DNA of 20,164 bases, from positions 1-20,164 of the IMG/VR virus record IMGVR_UViG_3300012920_000374. One strand, 5' to 3'. The translations under genes were made by a program, and so were the position numbers. This DNA is from a virus. A model generated the notes under the pieces. The model saw only the letters and a program-made list of their open reading frames with translations, did no database searches and had not been told where the DNA came from. Below are positions 10,993-17,279 of the stretch, piece after piece (the stretch's first letter is position 1; the number at the start of each line of letters is the position of its first letter).

Positions 10993-11363
10993 GCTTCATA
11001 AACTCGTCTAAAGGTTGCTGTACATGAATAAAAATCATTATTACTATAGTTTTGATTATATGTCTCACAAACTACTTTTATAGTTCTTTCTCCTCCTCCG
11101 GCGTTTGAATCAGGATATGTATAATTAAATGCAGTTACACCTGCTTTGTTATCAAAAAATGCTACAATATCATCTATCTCTGCTTTTGGTCTATTTGAAA
11201 AAGTTAAAGAAAAAGTTTGATTTATATTGTTTATTCCTTCTACAACTCTTTGCTCATATCCATCTCCAAACTGTATTTTAAGTGTTCGTGGTGCAATAGT
11301 TTGGGTAAGCCCTCTATCAGGAACTCTATTTGTGCCAGTTAAATCTGCAAATCCAATAGCCAT
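10989..11363 (-). CDS. M: Minor tail protein M
   Basis: This 124-residue protein fits the lambda gpM family, a tail-tip component that joins L and the end of the tube. Visible signatures are the early LKIQFGDGYEQRVVEGIN (residues 28-46), an aromatic strand with FNYTYPD and ERTIKVVCETYNQNY near the C-terminus. Length matches the family (about 110-130 residues). The ATG at 11363 overlaps the TAA of the tape measure gene as TAATG; a GGAG lies about ten bases upstream. The position between tape measure and L is the lambda order. Confidence 0.9.
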   Translation of the reverse strand: MAIGFADLTGTNRVPDRGLTQTIAPRTLKIQFGDGYEQRVVEGINNINQTFSLTFSNRPKAEIDDIVAFFDNKAGVTAFNYTYPDSNAGGGERTIKVVCETYNQNYSNNDFYSCTATFRRVYEA

Positions 11364-14300
11364 TATCCTGTTGCTCCAAATGGGCTAAGTATTCCACCCG
11401 GTCGCTTTTGTCTGTGCAATTCATCTTGTACTGCTGATGAAATTGCTCTTCCAAGAGCACTTGCTTGATCTCCACTGTCTGGAGTTTGTTGTGTTCCATC
11501 AGAGGAGATATTTATAACAACATTATTTGTATTTCCTGCTCCTTCTCGTCCAGTAAACTCTACAGGAATAGACTTTTTGTTTGGCATCGGTATGACTGCT
11601 TCTGTTCCATGTAGCATTGCTGGGAATCCTGCTTGAGGTCCACGAGCGATTCCTCCTGTAGAATATCCTCTAGGAGTCATTCCATATCTGCCGGCCTCTA
11701 TATCGATAGTTCCTAAGTTATTCACAGGAGCATTAGCACCAGGGCCTCTTCTTCCAAAAAGTCCTGAAGTCATTATTTGAAATACCATTAATTCTGCTAA
11801 CATTCTACTAATTGCTTGAAGAATAGAGTTTGCCATACTTCTAAACGCTTCTCTTGTTTTGTCTATTCCTCCACCAATTGATACAAAAGCATCTGCAAAA
11901 CTAGTTTTAAATGTAGTGGCAACATTCTGTAGCCCTCCTACAGTAATTTTTAACTTTTCATTTAGTTCTATATTATTTCTTAAATTTGCTAATGTCTCTT
12001 TATCTAATTTAGATATATCTATTTTATTTTTTAGTATAAAATCTTGAAAAGCTTGATCGATTGGATTTAAACTAAATCCTCTTTGCCGCGCTAATAGCTC
12101 TTCATTCTGAAGTCTAACACCATCAATTAATAAAGCATTTCTATTTTTTATTGCATCTATTTCCAATCCTATTGCATGTGCTCTATCTAATATCATTTGA
12201 ATTCTATGACTTTCTCTTTCTATAGCTTCATTATCTGCTGTTTTAGAAAATTCAGCAAAGTTTTCCTCTGCAAGTCGTGCCTCTCTTCGTTTTTGTTCTC
12301 TTTCTGATTCTAGCTTTGCTATTTGTCCAAATCTTTTTATTTCTTCTATTTCTACAGCACTTCTTCCAATAGCACCTGTTCCAACTGTAGCATCTTTTAC
12401 GCGAGCAGCAACTCGCTGTTGTTGCTCTAAAATTTGATTTATTTCTTTTTGAATTTCTAACTGTCTCTCATCAATATCTATTTGAACTTCTTTTACAGCA
12501 TTTTGTGCTTTTACAGTGTCTAAATTATTTTCTTCAATCTTTACTTTTGCTTGTGCATTAAATAAAGCTATGTTTGCATTTTGAAACTCCTGTGCAGTTT
12601 GGTCTATTCCTTTTTCTCTTAACAAGTCTATTTGTAGTTCTGCTGCTACGACTTTATCTTTTGCTGCAAGAATTTTATTTTCTTGATTTAATTCTGCTAT
12701 TTCTAATCGCTTTCTTTTTGATACAAAATCTTGTCTAACTTTATCTATTTCAGAAGCCTTTAAAGAGTTAAGCAAACTTTTTTCTTGATTTAATAATATA
12801 TCGCTTTGTGCTTCTCTACTTAGTTTTAACTGTCGCACTTGCTGTTCCTGAAGATCTAATATTGCCTTTCTTTCTCTTCTATTAAGTCCCAGTTGTTCAA
12901 ATAATCGTTCTAATTCAGCTTCTTCTTCGGCTGTCAGTTTTTCTTTAATATTAGCAACTCTTAAACCTCGGAAGCTTGATATTGGCCCTACTTCCTTTCC
13001 GACCGTATCCAATATTTTGATCATTTTGTCTCGAATTTCATCTTGTGATCTATCAAAACTTTCTTGATCAACTTCTGCTATTAAAAGAGCTCTTGCTTCT
13101 GTCTCTTTTTCTAGCGCAGTAACTAAAGATTCAAAAGGAGATCTTACTATTGCACTTGTTAGTTTATTTATTTCATTTGTTGTATTTTTAGTCAATTGAC
13201 CAAGTTGCTGTGCAGCATTTCCTGCTTTAATTATTTCATTTGATCTTAATAATATTTGTTTAGATGTTTCTTTATTTATTTGCCCTTCATTTTGTATTGT
13301 TTCATTCAATCCTTTAAATATAGGATTTAGTTTCTCCAAAGTAGTTGCAGTCTCAAGTAGTTCTTCTTTTAGTTCTTCAAAGTTTTCTGCAGCTCTTTGA
13401 GTTCGTAGATCATTTACTTTATCTATAAATTGTGCTATATTTACTTCTTTTAAAGCATTTCCAAGATTAACTACACTATCCGCTATTCCTAAAAGGGTGC
13501 CTTCTGCGCGTAGTTCAACTACTTTTTCTAAGTGTTTATTCAATTCTACTTGACTTGAAATTAAACCATCAACTTCTTCAGTTAATTTTTTTGTAGCTTT
13601 AGTAGTTGGAAATAGCATATTCACTAACATTTTTCCTATATCGAAAAGCATTACAGCTATACCAACAAAGGCAATTCCTTTTAGTGCAAAATTTACTCCT
13701 TTTACAAGTTTCTGTGCCCCTTTTAACATACCTTCAATCCCACCGAGAAAAGAAGCAGTTAGTCCAAATGCCATTTGTTTTCCAGCTAATTTAATTCCTC
13801 TAAAACTTTTTAGTGTTTCTTTGTTAAATTTCTTAACAAGACCTGCACGTATAGTATAAGATTTTCTCATATCTCGAACCTGTTGTTCATCAAAATCTTT
13901 TAAAATACCTGTTCTTGTAGCTGCTGAAGTTCTTATCTGATCTTCTGCATGTGTTAAAATTTTATCGGCATTTTTTACCGCTGCAGGACTTTGTGTTTTC
14001 CCAGTGAGAAAATCTAGTCCTTTACGACTAGTTCCTTCAGTATCTAAAGGTTGTGTTGTGAGGCCGCCCGACTGTGCAAGCGCATCTGCAGCTGCTGTGG
14101 CAGATGCAGTGCCCTGCTGCATTAATCCTGTTTGTGCAGCAAGCTGTGAAAATGCAAGAGAAGTGGTATCCGCAAATTTTTGTACTCTTCTGCCAACTCG
14201 TCCAGCAACATCTCCAAAGTCTTCAAAAGCCGGAACAACAGATTTAAGTAAGGGCAGAGCTAGAAGGCCAAAAAGAGCTATTAAAGAACTAACATTTTGG

Positions 14301-15145
14301 GATAAAAATTTAAGTACGGGAGTAAGTGCACCGGCTATATTAACTTTGAGTGTATTTAGAACATCATCAAATGCTTTTCCAAACTGTTGAACAGCAAAAG
14401 CATCTTCATCAATTATTTTTGCAATCGCTTGAAACTTTTTATCTGCTTCATCTAAAACAAAATTTGCTACAGCTTGACTTCGTTCAAAGGCATCTAGTTC
14501 TCCCGCAGCTTTACCTATTGCAGCAGCATAAACTTCTGTTGCTGGTTTGAGTCGAAGAATAATACCAAGTTCATCCAATAGCTCTGGTTCTGCTTTTGTT
14601 ACACCACGAATTAATCGTTGAAAAGAATCAGTTAAATCTCTTCCAAGTGCAAAAGAAACATTTTTAGCCGCAGTTGCTAAACCTTCTAATTGATCTCTAT
14701 TTAAGCCTGCCGCTGTACCAATTGCGGTGGCTTGTGCAGCTTCTGCATATCGGAGCTGTCCATTTGTAGCATCTTGAAGTGCCTTTGTGATTCCGGCATA
14801 ATTTGTGCCCATAAATGCACCAAAAGCTTGTTGACCTTGGATAAGATTTTTTGTATCTGCGGCTTCTTGTAAAAATCGAAAGGCTGCTGTAACAGCAAAA
14901 ACTCTGGCTGCAAGTTCCGCATATGCGGGAACAATACCGCCACTAATACCCTGCTGCATCTTACTAAAGTTTTTAGTAACATTTGAAGACATATCGGCAG
15001 CACCGCGAAGTTGCCTACGAGTATTACCTACTCCTTTTTCTACGCCTCCTAATGCTTTTTTAAGTTTTTTTGAATCAACTTCTAAACGACGAGTTGTGCC
15101 TTTATCGTCAACAATAACATCAATAAAAACTGTATTCTTCGCCAT
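11363..15145 (-). CDS. H: Tail tape measure protein
   Basis: This 1260-residue protein sets tail length and is likely injected with DNA. An N-terminal head region is followed by hydrophobic segments at about 284-306 (SSLIALFGLLALPLL) and 488-512 (GIAFVGIAVMLFDIG). A long Glu/Lys/Gln-rich coiled-coil region covers about 520-1070, with runs such as LNQENKILAAKDKVVAAELQ. The C-terminus has the common tape measure pattern GGIARGPQAGFPAMLHGTEAV followed by IPMPNKKSIPVE near residues 1170-1200. At the usual 1.5 angstrom per residue, a tube of roughly 190 nm is expected, longer than lambda's. The ATG shares its A with the TAA of the chaperone gene (TAATG), so translation is coupled to GT. Confidence 0.95.
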   Translation of the reverse strand: MAKNTVFIDVIVDDKGTTRRLEVDSKKLKKALGGVEKGVGNTRRQLRGAADMSSNVTKNFSKMQQGISGGIVPAYAELAARVFAVTAAFRFLQEAADTKNLIQGQQAFGAFMGTNYAGITKALQDATNGQLRYAEAAQATAIGTAAGLNRDQLEGLATAAKNVSFALGRDLTDSFQRLIRGVTKAEPELLDELGIILRLKPATEVYAAAIGKAAGELDAFERSQAVANFVLDEADKKFQAIAKIIDEDAFAVQQFGKAFDDVLNTLKVNIAGALTPVLKFLSQNVSSLIALFGLLALPLLKSVVPAFEDFGDVAGRVGRRVQKFADTTSLAFSQLAAQTGLMQQGTASATAAADALAQSGGLTTQPLDTEGTSRKGLDFLTGKTQSPAAVKNADKILTHAEDQIRTSAATRTGILKDFDEQQVRDMRKSYTIRAGLVKKFNKETLKSFRGIKLAGKQMAFGLTASFLGGIEGMLKGAQKLVKGVNFALKGIAFVGIAVMLFDIGKMLVNMLFPTTKATKKLTEEVDGLISSQVELNKHLEKVVELRAEGTLLGIADSVVNLGNALKEVNIAQFIDKVNDLRTQRAAENFEELKEELLETATTLEKLNPIFKGLNETIQNEGQINKETSKQILLRSNEIIKAGNAAQQLGQLTKNTTNEINKLTSAIVRSPFESLVTALEKETEARALLIAEVDQESFDRSQDEIRDKMIKILDTVGKEVGPISSFRGLRVANIKEKLTAEEEAELERLFEQLGLNRRERKAILDLQEQQVRQLKLSREAQSDILLNQEKSLLNSLKASEIDKVRQDFVSKRKRLEIAELNQENKILAAKDKVVAAELQIDLLREKGIDQTAQEFQNANIALFNAQAKVKIEENNLDTVKAQNAVKEVQIDIDERQLEIQKEINQILEQQQRVAARVKDATVGTGAIGRSAVEIEEIKRFGQIAKLESEREQKRREARLAEENFAEFSKTADNEAIERESHRIQMILDRAHAIGLEIDAIKNRNALLIDGVRLQNEELLARQRGFSLNPIDQAFQDFILKNKIDISKLDKETLANLRNNIELNEKLKITVGGLQNVATTFKTSFADAFVSIGGGIDKTREAFRSMANSILQAISRMLAELMVFQIMTSGLFGRRGPGANAPVNNLGTIDIEAGRYGMTPRGYSTGGIARGPQAGFPAMLHGTEAVIPMPNKKSIPVEFTGREGAGNTNNVVINISSDGTQQTPDSGDQASALGRAISSAVQDELHRQKRPGGILSPFGATG

Positions 15146-15992
15146 TATCTTGATACACTAAAGGTATTGCTACCGCTTTTTGCTTTTGCCGTTCTTTCTG
15201 CTTGCTTTCTTTTTGCTTCTGCTTCTTCTGCTCTATGCTTCATAAGAATTGCTTCATAAAGCTTTCCAATATATACTACTTCTCTTTTATCATCTTTATC
15301 TATTTTAAAAGTTTCAAAAATAAAATCACAAGCAGTCCAGTCTTTTCCTAAGTATGTTCCTGACGTCCCATCCCATCTATCCGATAAAAGGTCGAACACA
15401 AAAAATGCCACTTGCACTTCATATGGAAACATAGAAGCATCTAGTGGCATCTTATTAGGATCTGGTTCTTGTCCAAGCTGTTCACAGAGCATTAGATATT
15501 TGGTGACATCTAATTTACTATCGGACTCTTTTACCCAACGCGTGAGTAGACGTTGTATTTCGTCTACTTGCGTCCAGTAAAATTTTCTAGGTCACCTACT
15601 GTCTCTGTTACCCATGTATCAAATGAGTTTGCATTCTTCATTAAAGTTTGCGCATTTTCCTCATTATATAAAAGCTCGTCATCTGGATCCAAGTCTTGTA
15701 TATCTACCAAAAGAAGCTCTTCTAGGTAACGATATTTTAAACCTTTCCAACCCTTTATAACAGCTTTTGTATATTCAACAAGGAACTTTTCATCATCTAA
15801 CTCTTCTTCTGGCTGATGTGTCTTTTTATTCCACTTTGTAGTTGTTACCTTCTTTCTTAGTTTTATTAACTCTTCACGAGCTAGGTAACATAGGTCTACA
15901 GAAAATCCTGTATAACCAGGAAAGTCTACAGCTACAGTTTTCGAAGAGGTCATTAGACTTGCTAATGAAACCGGTTCCTTTTGTTCGGGCAT
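15145..15992 (-). CDS. GT: Tail assembly chaperone GT, -1 frameshift product
   Basis: This is the extended chaperone made when ribosomes slip back one base near the end of G. The product is 282 residues: 138 from the G frame to ENF, then 144 from the -1 frame beginning YWTQVDEIQRLLTRW. The -1 frame is open without a stop from the slip site to the TAA at 15147-15145. The T part has a PNKMPLDASMFPYEVQVAF segment and a charged Lys/Glu/Ala tail. In lambda, G and GT hold the tape measure while the tube forms, with the T domain recruiting tube subunits. The first ATG in the T frame (15492) lies inside the T domain and has no good ribosome binding site, so separate expression of T is unlikely. The coordinates cover both frames. 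Confidence 0.85.
15545..15585 (-). other. Programmed -1 ribosomal frameshift element
   Basis: The slippery heptamer A AAT TTT (15585-15579) is in the G reading frame, matching the X XXY YYZ rule, thirteen bases before the G stop codon. Ten bases downstream starts a perfect 8-bp stem, AGTAGACG (15568-15561) with CGTCTACT (15552-15545), around an eight-base loop. The G stop codon TAG lies within the 5' arm of this stem. After the slip the -1 frame runs straight into the T domain. Confidence 0.85.
15564..15992 (-). CDS. G: Tail assembly chaperone G
   Basis: This 142-residue protein is the unshifted chaperone product, expected to be much more abundant than GT. It is acidic with helical stretches (SVDLCYLAREELIKLRKKV, LEELLLVDIQDLDPDDELLY) and ends LENFTGRK. 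It occupies the lambda G position between major tail protein and tape measure. The ATG at 15992 has GAGGA at 16004-16000, seven bases upstream, and lies about 29 bases after the predicted start of transcription. Sequence similarity to lambda G is not obvious by eye; the call rests on position, size and the frameshift into a T-like domain. Confidence 0.85.
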   Translation of the reverse strand: MPEQKEPVSLASLMTSSKTVAVDFPGYTGFSVDLCYLAREELIKLRKKVTTTKWNKKTHQPEEELDDEKFLVEYTKAVIKGWKGLKYRYLEELLLVDIQDLDPDDELLYNEENAQTLMKNANSFDTWVTETVGDLENFTGRK

Positions 15993-16027
15993 ATACGTAT
16001 CCTCAAGTAAAATTTCGATATTGCTAT

Positions 16028-16056
16028 AGTATAGTGGATGGGAGACAAAAAGTCAA
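16028..16056 (-). promoter_or_regulatory. Sigma-70-type promoter upstream of the chaperone genes
   Basis: TTGACT (16056-16051) and TATACT (16033-16028) are separated by 17 bases. The promoter sits 27 bases downstream of the terminator that closes the major tail gene and upstream of the G ribosome binding site. It would restart transcription for G/GT, tape measure and the tip genes. Confidence 0.7.
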
Positions 16057-16080
16057 GAAATATTTTTGAAAGGTGAGAAG

Positions 16081-16106
16081 AAAAAAAGGGGCCGAAGCCC
16101 CTTTTT
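16081..16106 (-). terminator. Rho-independent terminator after the major tail gene
   Basis: On the minus strand a ten-pair stem (16106-16097 with 16092-16083) consists of AAAAAGGGGC, a TTCG tetraloop and GCCCCTTTTT, followed by two more T. It lies 12 bases past the major tail protein stop codon. The A-run on the opposite side makes it potentially bidirectional. Confidence 0.92.
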
Positions 16107-16118
16107 CTTTTTGCAGAA

Positions 16119-17279
16119 TTACGCTGCGCCTACATATTTAAGTGTTAATTCATTTGTTCCAGATATTGTACTGGGAAGAGCGTGGAAGTTTGTTTCCAGC
16201 GAAATAACATCTTCAATACTGTGAGAAGGTATCTCAAAGTGTGCTGTAGGCATATTGAGTTCTAGTCTTGGAGTACCAGAAGCTCCGCCTATCTTAAATA
16301 TAGTTTCAAATTTATTTACAATTTTAGCTCTAGCAGCTGTACTTGTTAAGTCTTGGAAGAAGTCTGTAGAAGTACCATTATTGCTCGCATTATCAAAGTT
16401 TAGATAACATGAGAAGCTTCCAGAAATACTTCTTGCTCCAGTTACGTGACCAAGCGGTACGTTCACAATTCCAAGTTCTTCTGGAGTAATAAATGTAATA
16501 TTATTTGAAATCGTTATATTTCCAGCAGTAAGTGTTAACTCATACTCACCAGCATCATTCCCACCTTTACCAGGGAATGTTGTAGTATCATTGGCATCTA
16601 TAGCTAGAGTCGTAAGTCTGTTTCGTATAAAGTTATCTGTTGCTGTAATATCTTCAAATACAGTTCTTGTTGGTTTTGAATCCTGCGTAACTGTAGCAGC
16701 AAATCCTGACCATTGAATAGTTGCAATTCCATCAATATCAAAATCAAGAGTTGCCTCATTTACAACAGCTCCAGTTAGTTTATAAACTGTTGGGCTTGCT
16801 CCACCATCATCCAGGGAGAAGTACATATTTGATGTTCCTAAAGTTGACTTATTTGATGATGCAAAATCAATATCCAAATCCGTTGTATCTGCTGTAAAAC
16901 CAGTAAAGTCAGATGCTTGCGATGCACCCGGAGAAGTATAACTAGCATCTCCTACCATAAGTGCCCATAAAACTTCTTCCACTGCATGATGTACAGTTGA
17001 TCCATTCTTTTCTGCATTTCCAGCTACGTTTGTTCCCGCAGATTTAAAAGGTCTTACATATGTACTAAAAGACCACTCTACAGGTGCCAAAGAGTCATTA
17101 AAGAGTCTTCTTCCACGTCTACTTGCTCCAGTGCTGTCTTCCATTTCTGCAAGAACCACTTCAGTAGAGTTTGTTGTTTGCGAAAAACTAAATCCATCTA
17201 GAATTGGTACTTCCCATACTGCTGAGCCTATTTCTACATAAAATTTAGTATCGCGGCTAAAATATAATACACTCGCCAT
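16119..17279 (-). CDS. V: Major tail tube protein
   Basis: This 386-residue protein is the likely main subunit of the tail tube. It is rich in Thr, Ser, Asn, Asp and Gly with alternating beta-strand patterns. The N-terminus (YFSRDTKFYVEIGSAVWEVP, then LDGFSFSQTTNSTEV) and VEWSFSTYVRPFKS recall gpV-type tube proteins. It is larger than lambda gpV (246 residues), so it may carry an inserted or additional surface domain around residues 95-190. The ATG at 17279 has a strong AGGAG (17290-17286) six bases upstream, and the gene has its own terminator, both fitting high expression. It sits between tail terminator and chaperones, the lambda V position. Identity is from position, composition and expression signals; the symbol follows the lambda equivalent. 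Confidence 0.82.
   Translation of the reverse strand: MASVLYFSRDTKFYVEIGSAVWEVPILDGFSFSQTTNSTEVVLAEMEDSTGASRRGRRLFNDSLAPVEWSFSTYVRPFKSAGTNVAGNAEKNGSTVHHAVEEVLWALMVGDASYTSPGASQASDFTGFTADTTDLDIDFASSNKSTLGTSNMYFSLDDGGASPTVYKLTGAVVNEATLDFDIDGIATIQWSGFAATVTQDSKPTRTVFEDITATDNFIRNRLTTLAIDANDTTTFPGKGGNDAGEYELTLTAGNITISNNITFITPEELGIVNVPLGHVTGARSISGSFSCYLNFDNASNNGTSTDFFQDLTSTAARAKIVNKFETIFKIGGASGTPRLELNMPTAHFEIPSHSIEDVISLETNFHALPSTISGTNELTLKYVGAA

Follow-up and report, generated by a model that had tools for sequence, protein, structure and literature searches.

How is the T domain of a phage tail module translated when its frame overlaps that of the upstream gene G? We examined this question in the 20,164-base IMG/VR virus record IMGVR_UViG_3300012920_000374, which derives from a marine phage and is referred to over its whole length as the window. 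Its minus strand, on which all features described below lie, encodes a tail module whose order resembles that of lambda: major tail protein, G, T and tape measure protein, followed by minor tail proteins, M and L among them. An earlier note, made from the letters of this DNA, had read the G/T overlap as a −1 frameshift site of the G/GT type with the G stop codon inside the stimulatory stem.

G and T form a chaperone gene pair in a lambda-like tail module

G (15564–15992) encodes the 0-frame product of 142 aa and matches the tail assembly chaperone family phrog_313 (E=4.5e-12), and the T domain (15145–15579) matches the tail assembly chaperone family phrog_3914 (E=7e-19). The pair is placed as in lambda-type G/GT modules, with the major tail protein gene directly 5′ of G (16119–17279; phrog_3575, E=4.5e-45) and the tape measure protein gene directly 3′ of T (11363–15145; phrog_3779, E=4.9e-36). 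A Pfam search with the G and T proteins gave zero matches, as did an Rfam search of 14900–16300 with E values up to 1. T is open in the −1 frame for 144 codons, from the codon TAC at 15579 to a stop at 15147–15145, and contains no ATG, GTG or TTG before 15492; the ATG at that position is codon 30. This overlap in the −1 frame, with no usable start for T, is characteristic of G/GT pairs and agrees with what the earlier note had described.

The major tail protein gene is followed by an intrinsic terminator (GGGGCTTCGGCCCC and a T run; 16106–16083), and G is preceded by a sigma-70-like promoter (TTGACT-17-TATACT; 16056–16028). As comparable terminator/promoter pairs can be recognized in most of a dozen relatives, G, T and the tape measure gene look like a transcription unit of their own.

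The overlap contains a slippery heptamer followed by a stable hairpin

G ends with GAC CTA GAA AAT TTT ACT GGA CGC AAG TAG. The slippery heptamer A AAU UUU (15585–15579) is in the G frame, and the stop codon TAG (15566–15564) is the fifth codon after it. Downstream lies a perfect 8-bp stem with an 8-base loop, in which the 5′ arm AGTAGACG (15568–15561) holds the stop codon and pairs with the 3′ arm CGTCTACT (15552–15545). Every base and coordinate that had been assigned to the site was correct, but the proposed spacer of ten bases applies to this upper stem only. In the full predicted fold (−21.8 kcal/mol) a lower helix, GACGC/GCGUU followed by ACU/GGU, starts directly after the heptamer. Its GACGC (15574–15570) and GCGTT (15541–15537) sides form a window-specific extension, the counterpart of which in the close relatives L010 and L011 is GCGC/GCGC. 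In most relatives the paired region begins 4–8 nt after the heptamer, with a mode of 8.

When the −1-frame synonymous codons were randomised 200 times, none of the resulting sequences folded as stably as the window hairpin (z = −4.2). Among the 115 XXXYYYZ heptamers on the minus strand, the A AAU UUU of this site is the only one with a perfect stem (8 bp or longer) within the next 15 nt. From these two results we conclude that the combination of heptamer and hairpin is not due to chance. The fold also permits GUAAAA (15534–15529) to pair with the slippery-site UUUUAC, closing the whole hairpin (−25.9 kcal/mol). This pairing was dropped as evidence because it would already be open once a ribosome occupies the heptamer, and because the synonymous constraint on the moderately conserved GUAAAA codons (z 8.3) is not exceptional compared with other columns.

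The heptamer and the −1 opening are conserved in relatives

Searches of IMG/VR with the G or T protein of the window alone yielded 112 loci with a readable G, and all 112 contain AAATTTT in the G frame, i.e. the in-frame X XXY YYZ heptamer near the end of G that is typical of G/GT pairs. Addition of loci identified with a DNA pattern brought the total to 227 loci with 162 distinct sites; since the search pattern included the heptamer, the loci found in this way were excluded as evidence of its conservation. The stop codon follows the heptamer by five codons in 222 of the 227 loci. All marine and freshwater relatives encode T in the −1 frame, and in every relative this frame stays open through the heptamer.

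Searches with T5-like G proteins added more distant clades, freshwater and other, in which a −1-frame T is likewise combined with either A AAU UUU or G GGA AAC. The latter replaces A AAU UUU at about the same place in the freshwater loci L273, L276, L277, L284, L288 and L291, and some relatives with G GGA AAC have small hairpins at the stop codon (e.g. AGCAGT-TAAT-ACTGCT in L291). A search with one Vibrio T5-like G returned two loci only.

Comparative evidence for selection on the hairpin

Raw synonymous conservation was rejected as proof of the stem since it is unspecific, other columns of G and T scoring as high or higher. We therefore relied on covariation, register shifts and folding against a synonymous null. 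Across a folding set of 116 divergent relatives (<85% identical), the mean synonymous-null z score was −2.5, compared with about 0 in four control windows of T.

The hairpins fall into two classes, both of which cover the stop codon wholly or partly. Class I has the form CAAGUAR-N14-YUACUUG, and class II the form GCAAGUA-N7-UACUUGC, with the 3′ arm three codons earlier than in class I. The covariation score of class I (84 sequences) was 0.266 versus 0.121 after shuffling (0 of 500 as high), and 0.04–0.09 after sliding. For class II (22 sequences) the corresponding values were 0.178 and 0.084 (0 of 500), with a GC/CG exchange at the helix base (pair 15–35). The third base of the stop codon and its partner in class I are GC in 63 sequences, AU in 12, GU in 8 and unpaired in 1, such that TAA occurs with TTA or TTG (TTR), and TAG with CTA or CTG (CTN) or, by wobble, TTA. 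Independent contrasts were taken on a quick FastTree tree built without the site columns. Of 16 independent pairs differing in the third base of the stop, the partner had changed to match in about 12, had changed in the opposite sense in none and was unchanged in 4 (sign test, p about 5e-4); the hairpin register had changed 6 times on the tree.

Codon choice was compared with expected frequencies derived from the family itself. Across relatives, the Leu codons used in the 3′ arm are preferentially CTA/CTG and CTT; at +39, CTT was found in 110 of 137 cases versus 34 expected. This bias ends at the 3′ arm, as the Glu, Arg and Tyr codons at +42 to +48 are unbiased. The strongly biased columns at +6, +15 and +18 were disregarded because they are dual-coding with the G frame. 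Synonymous constraint is down to background at +42 to +48 and so gives no hint of a second (pseudoknot) helix. The 3′ arm is formed by different codons in different clades and classes, and its changes are between synonymous codons, a pattern that protein conservation cannot easily yield. From these comparisons of sequence we conclude that the hairpin is selected in the relatives, and it corresponds in this respect to the downstream stem-loop of dnaX-type cassettes. The joint behavior of heptamer and stem in relatives had been named beforehand as a test of −1 G/GT frameshifting; both elements were kept and the stem pairs covary, which favors that interpretation.

The G stop codon is usually, but not necessarily, part of the stem

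The position of the G stop within the 5′ arm holds for the window and is conserved, with at least two stop bases in the predicted arm in 108 of 116 representatives, the stop-in-stem arrangement of the coronavirus type. The covariation indicates that the stop bases pair; it does not follow from the covariation that a stop is needed at that place. Five relatives have lost the stop five codons after the heptamer yet keep a hairpin. Two of these, L177 and L209, have a compensated helix, which in L209 (CAAGUCG/CGACUUG) is compensated at the former stop. These exceptions argue that the hairpin is primary and that the stop inside it is usual but dispensable. The overlap between stop and 5′ arm is partly explained by their shared position near +19 and by the fact that CAAGUA codes in two frames. 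The earlier note had called the arrangement less usual; it is real, but it has already been described in coronaviruses and is not strictly required here.

A narrower question within the frameshift interpretation is whether selection acted on the hairpin, with the stop falling inside it merely through the coincidence of stimulator spacing and stop position and having no function of its own. We give this view slightly less than an even chance. It accords with the relatives that keep a hairpin without the stop and with distant clades whose stop falls in the loop (L271 and L291), but it does not readily account for a distance of exactly five codons in nearly all loci (222/227) or for a stop that stays paired in most representatives (108/116). 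In addition, moving the equivalent 0-frame stop at the SARS-CoV-2 frameshift site lowers frameshifting (PMC8168617).

A Shine–Dalgarno-like element upstream of the heptamer

Beyond the lower helix, a second feature absent from the earlier note is a conserved Shine–Dalgarno (SD)-like AGGUGA (15597–15592), six nt 5′ of the heptamer and complementary to the 3′ end of 16S rRNA. Its Gly codon is GGT in 80 of approximately 104 Gly codons in relatives, versus about 25% expected. Predicted duplexes with the 16S tail averaged −11 kcal/mol in relatives and reached −11.9 kcal/mol in the window, compared with −1.4 to −2.3 kcal/mol for controls. Relative to synonymous alternatives the complementarity had a z score of −1.14; most of it comes from the conserved amino acids and a smaller part from codon choice. 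We consider AGGUGA a probable 5′ stimulator of frameshifting.

Probable programmed −1 frameshifting between G and T

We conclude, with a probability of roughly 0.93, that the overlap constitutes a programmed −1 ribosomal frameshift site between the tail assembly chaperone genes G and T. The majority of ribosomes would translate G and stop at UAG. A minority would pause at the hairpin with AAU and UUU in the P and A sites, probably aided by pairing of AGGUGA with 16S rRNA, and both tRNAs would then slip to AAA and UUU. Continued reading of UAC UGG ACG CAA into T would give a 282-aa GT fusion with the junction ENF-YWTQ. By analogy with lambda, G would coat the tape measure protein and GT would recruit the major tail protein. 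Ribosomes that do not shift would terminate within the hairpin and leave, allowing it to refold before the next ribosome arrives; this role of the stop, which follows coronavirus-type reasoning, is the best available reading. The sequences establish the anatomy, conservation and covariation of the site; the slippage and its efficiency, the action of the SD-like element and the refolding role of the stop are inferences.

T could instead be a separate gene expressed by coupling or reinitiation after the G stop, the hairpin modulating that process rather than frameshifting. Such a role would suit a hairpin that sits on the stop codon, and in T5-like records T is annotated as a separate CDS that has a start of its own. 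We regard this explanation as improbable: with initiation possible only from 15492 onward, about 30 codons that are conserved as protein in relatives would be lost, and neither the invariant in-frame A AAU UUU nor the unbroken −1 opening in all relatives would be explained. Joining of the frames by transcriptional slippage on AAAATTTT runs is more improbable still. Although slippage of this type yields two products in some bacterial genes, the known cases involve runs of about nine (PMC5009743), and the longest run here is four As followed by four Ts; furthermore, slippage by RNA polymerase would need neither a covarying hairpin nor a heptamer phased to the codons. Programmed −1 frameshifting is the reading retained below.

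G/GT frameshifting is established, and is −1, −2 or +1 in different phages (PMC5009743). The site shares with lambda and other long-tailed phages its place between tail tube and tape measure, two overlapping chaperone frames and a −1 shift near the end of G (PMC5009743). It differs from lambda in its heptamer A AAU UUU, the strong covarying hairpin holding the stop, the SD-like element and the families phrog_313/3914. The combination of a 5′ SD-like element, a slippery heptamer and a simple 3′ stem-loop is that of the Escherichia coli dnaX cassette (PMC5009743), although the dnaX heptamer is A AAA AAG and its −1 product is the shorter one, whereas the −1 product in the window is the longer chaperone. 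With coronavirus ORF1a/1b the site shares a 0-frame stop that lies five codons past the heptamer and within the stimulatory stem (PMC8168617); there, a pseudoknot acts in an RNA virus on eukaryotic ribosomes, in contrast to a hairpin in a DNA phage. The site thus belongs to the known −1 G/GT frameshifts of the lambda kind, among which it is unusually well supported. It extends the textbook case by its covarying stop codon and by the contrast with T5-like phages.

A candidate +1 site in T5-like phages

In T5-like phages (Demerecviridae; T5.143/T5.142), homologs of the G and T proteins are encoded at the corresponding place, and T likewise has no conserved start. In contrast to the window, their T is in the +1 frame, A AAU UUU is absent and UUU-CGN is present in the overlap. 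In eleven Demerecviridae records, including T5 (AY543070), sequence homologous to T is located in the +1 frame of G and is conserved upstream of the annotated T starts. These starts are themselves not conserved, e.g. IME260 has ATT at the ATG of T5. An in-frame UUU-CGN was present in the G/T overlap of every T5-like record examined, at a near-constant distance from T and 6 to 39 nt from the G stop (loci L311:1085–1089 for T5, L115–L117, L237–L240, L242 and L312–L315). The two frames would be joined at this candidate site if tRNA-Phe slipped by +1 from UUU to UUC; a −2 shift is a possible alternative. T5 and Sugarland are said in a genome announcement to lack a predicted frameshift signal (PMC6256483), and our search of the open literature, with most subscription journals outside it, found no report of a +1 site in T5-like phages. 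The earlier note had held that relatives with T but without heptamer and stem would weigh against its reading. Such relatives do exist among the T5-like phages, but with their T in the +1 frame they are no argument against the −1 site.

At the homologous Phe codon, the window would slip by −1 (AAU UUU to AAA UUU) and T5-like phages by +1 (UUU C to UUC). Combined with the stop codon data, this suggests a wider reading, which we offer tentatively as somewhat more apt to fail than to hold. The stop would be a selected, base-paired part of the stimulator at which termination resets the hairpin, an arrangement at which tailed phages and coronaviruses would have arrived independently, and one chaperone family would have switched between −1 and +1 shifting at a homologous Phe codon while keeping the fusion.

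Through the comparative data, a single predicted site has become a family of frameshift signals with good support. Since nature supplies compensatory variants of the stop codon within this family, what a stop contributes when it lies inside a stimulatory stem becomes testable in a bacterial system. The T5 comparison points to a +1 frameshift that has apparently been overlooked in the model phage T5 and its relatives, in which T is now annotated as a separate gene, and hence to probable annotation errors in many phage records.

Other constrained segments of G and T

Three further segments show constraint at the nucleotide level. Within G, TACCTAGAAGAGCTTCTTTTGGTAGAT (15728–15702) is nearly invariant in nucleotide sequence among marine relatives, being identical in 33 of 116 and having at most four mismatches in 99 of 116; the region keeps the uncommon codons GAG and TTG, and both other frames are closed nearby. 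Synonymous constraint over the first codons of G (approximately 15971–15942; offsets −386 to −359) perhaps reflects an effect on translation initiation. Strong synonymous constraint was also found in T at approximately 15420–15406, +165 to +177 from the heptamer, where the uncommon Val codon GTG occurs at +171 in 80 sequences.
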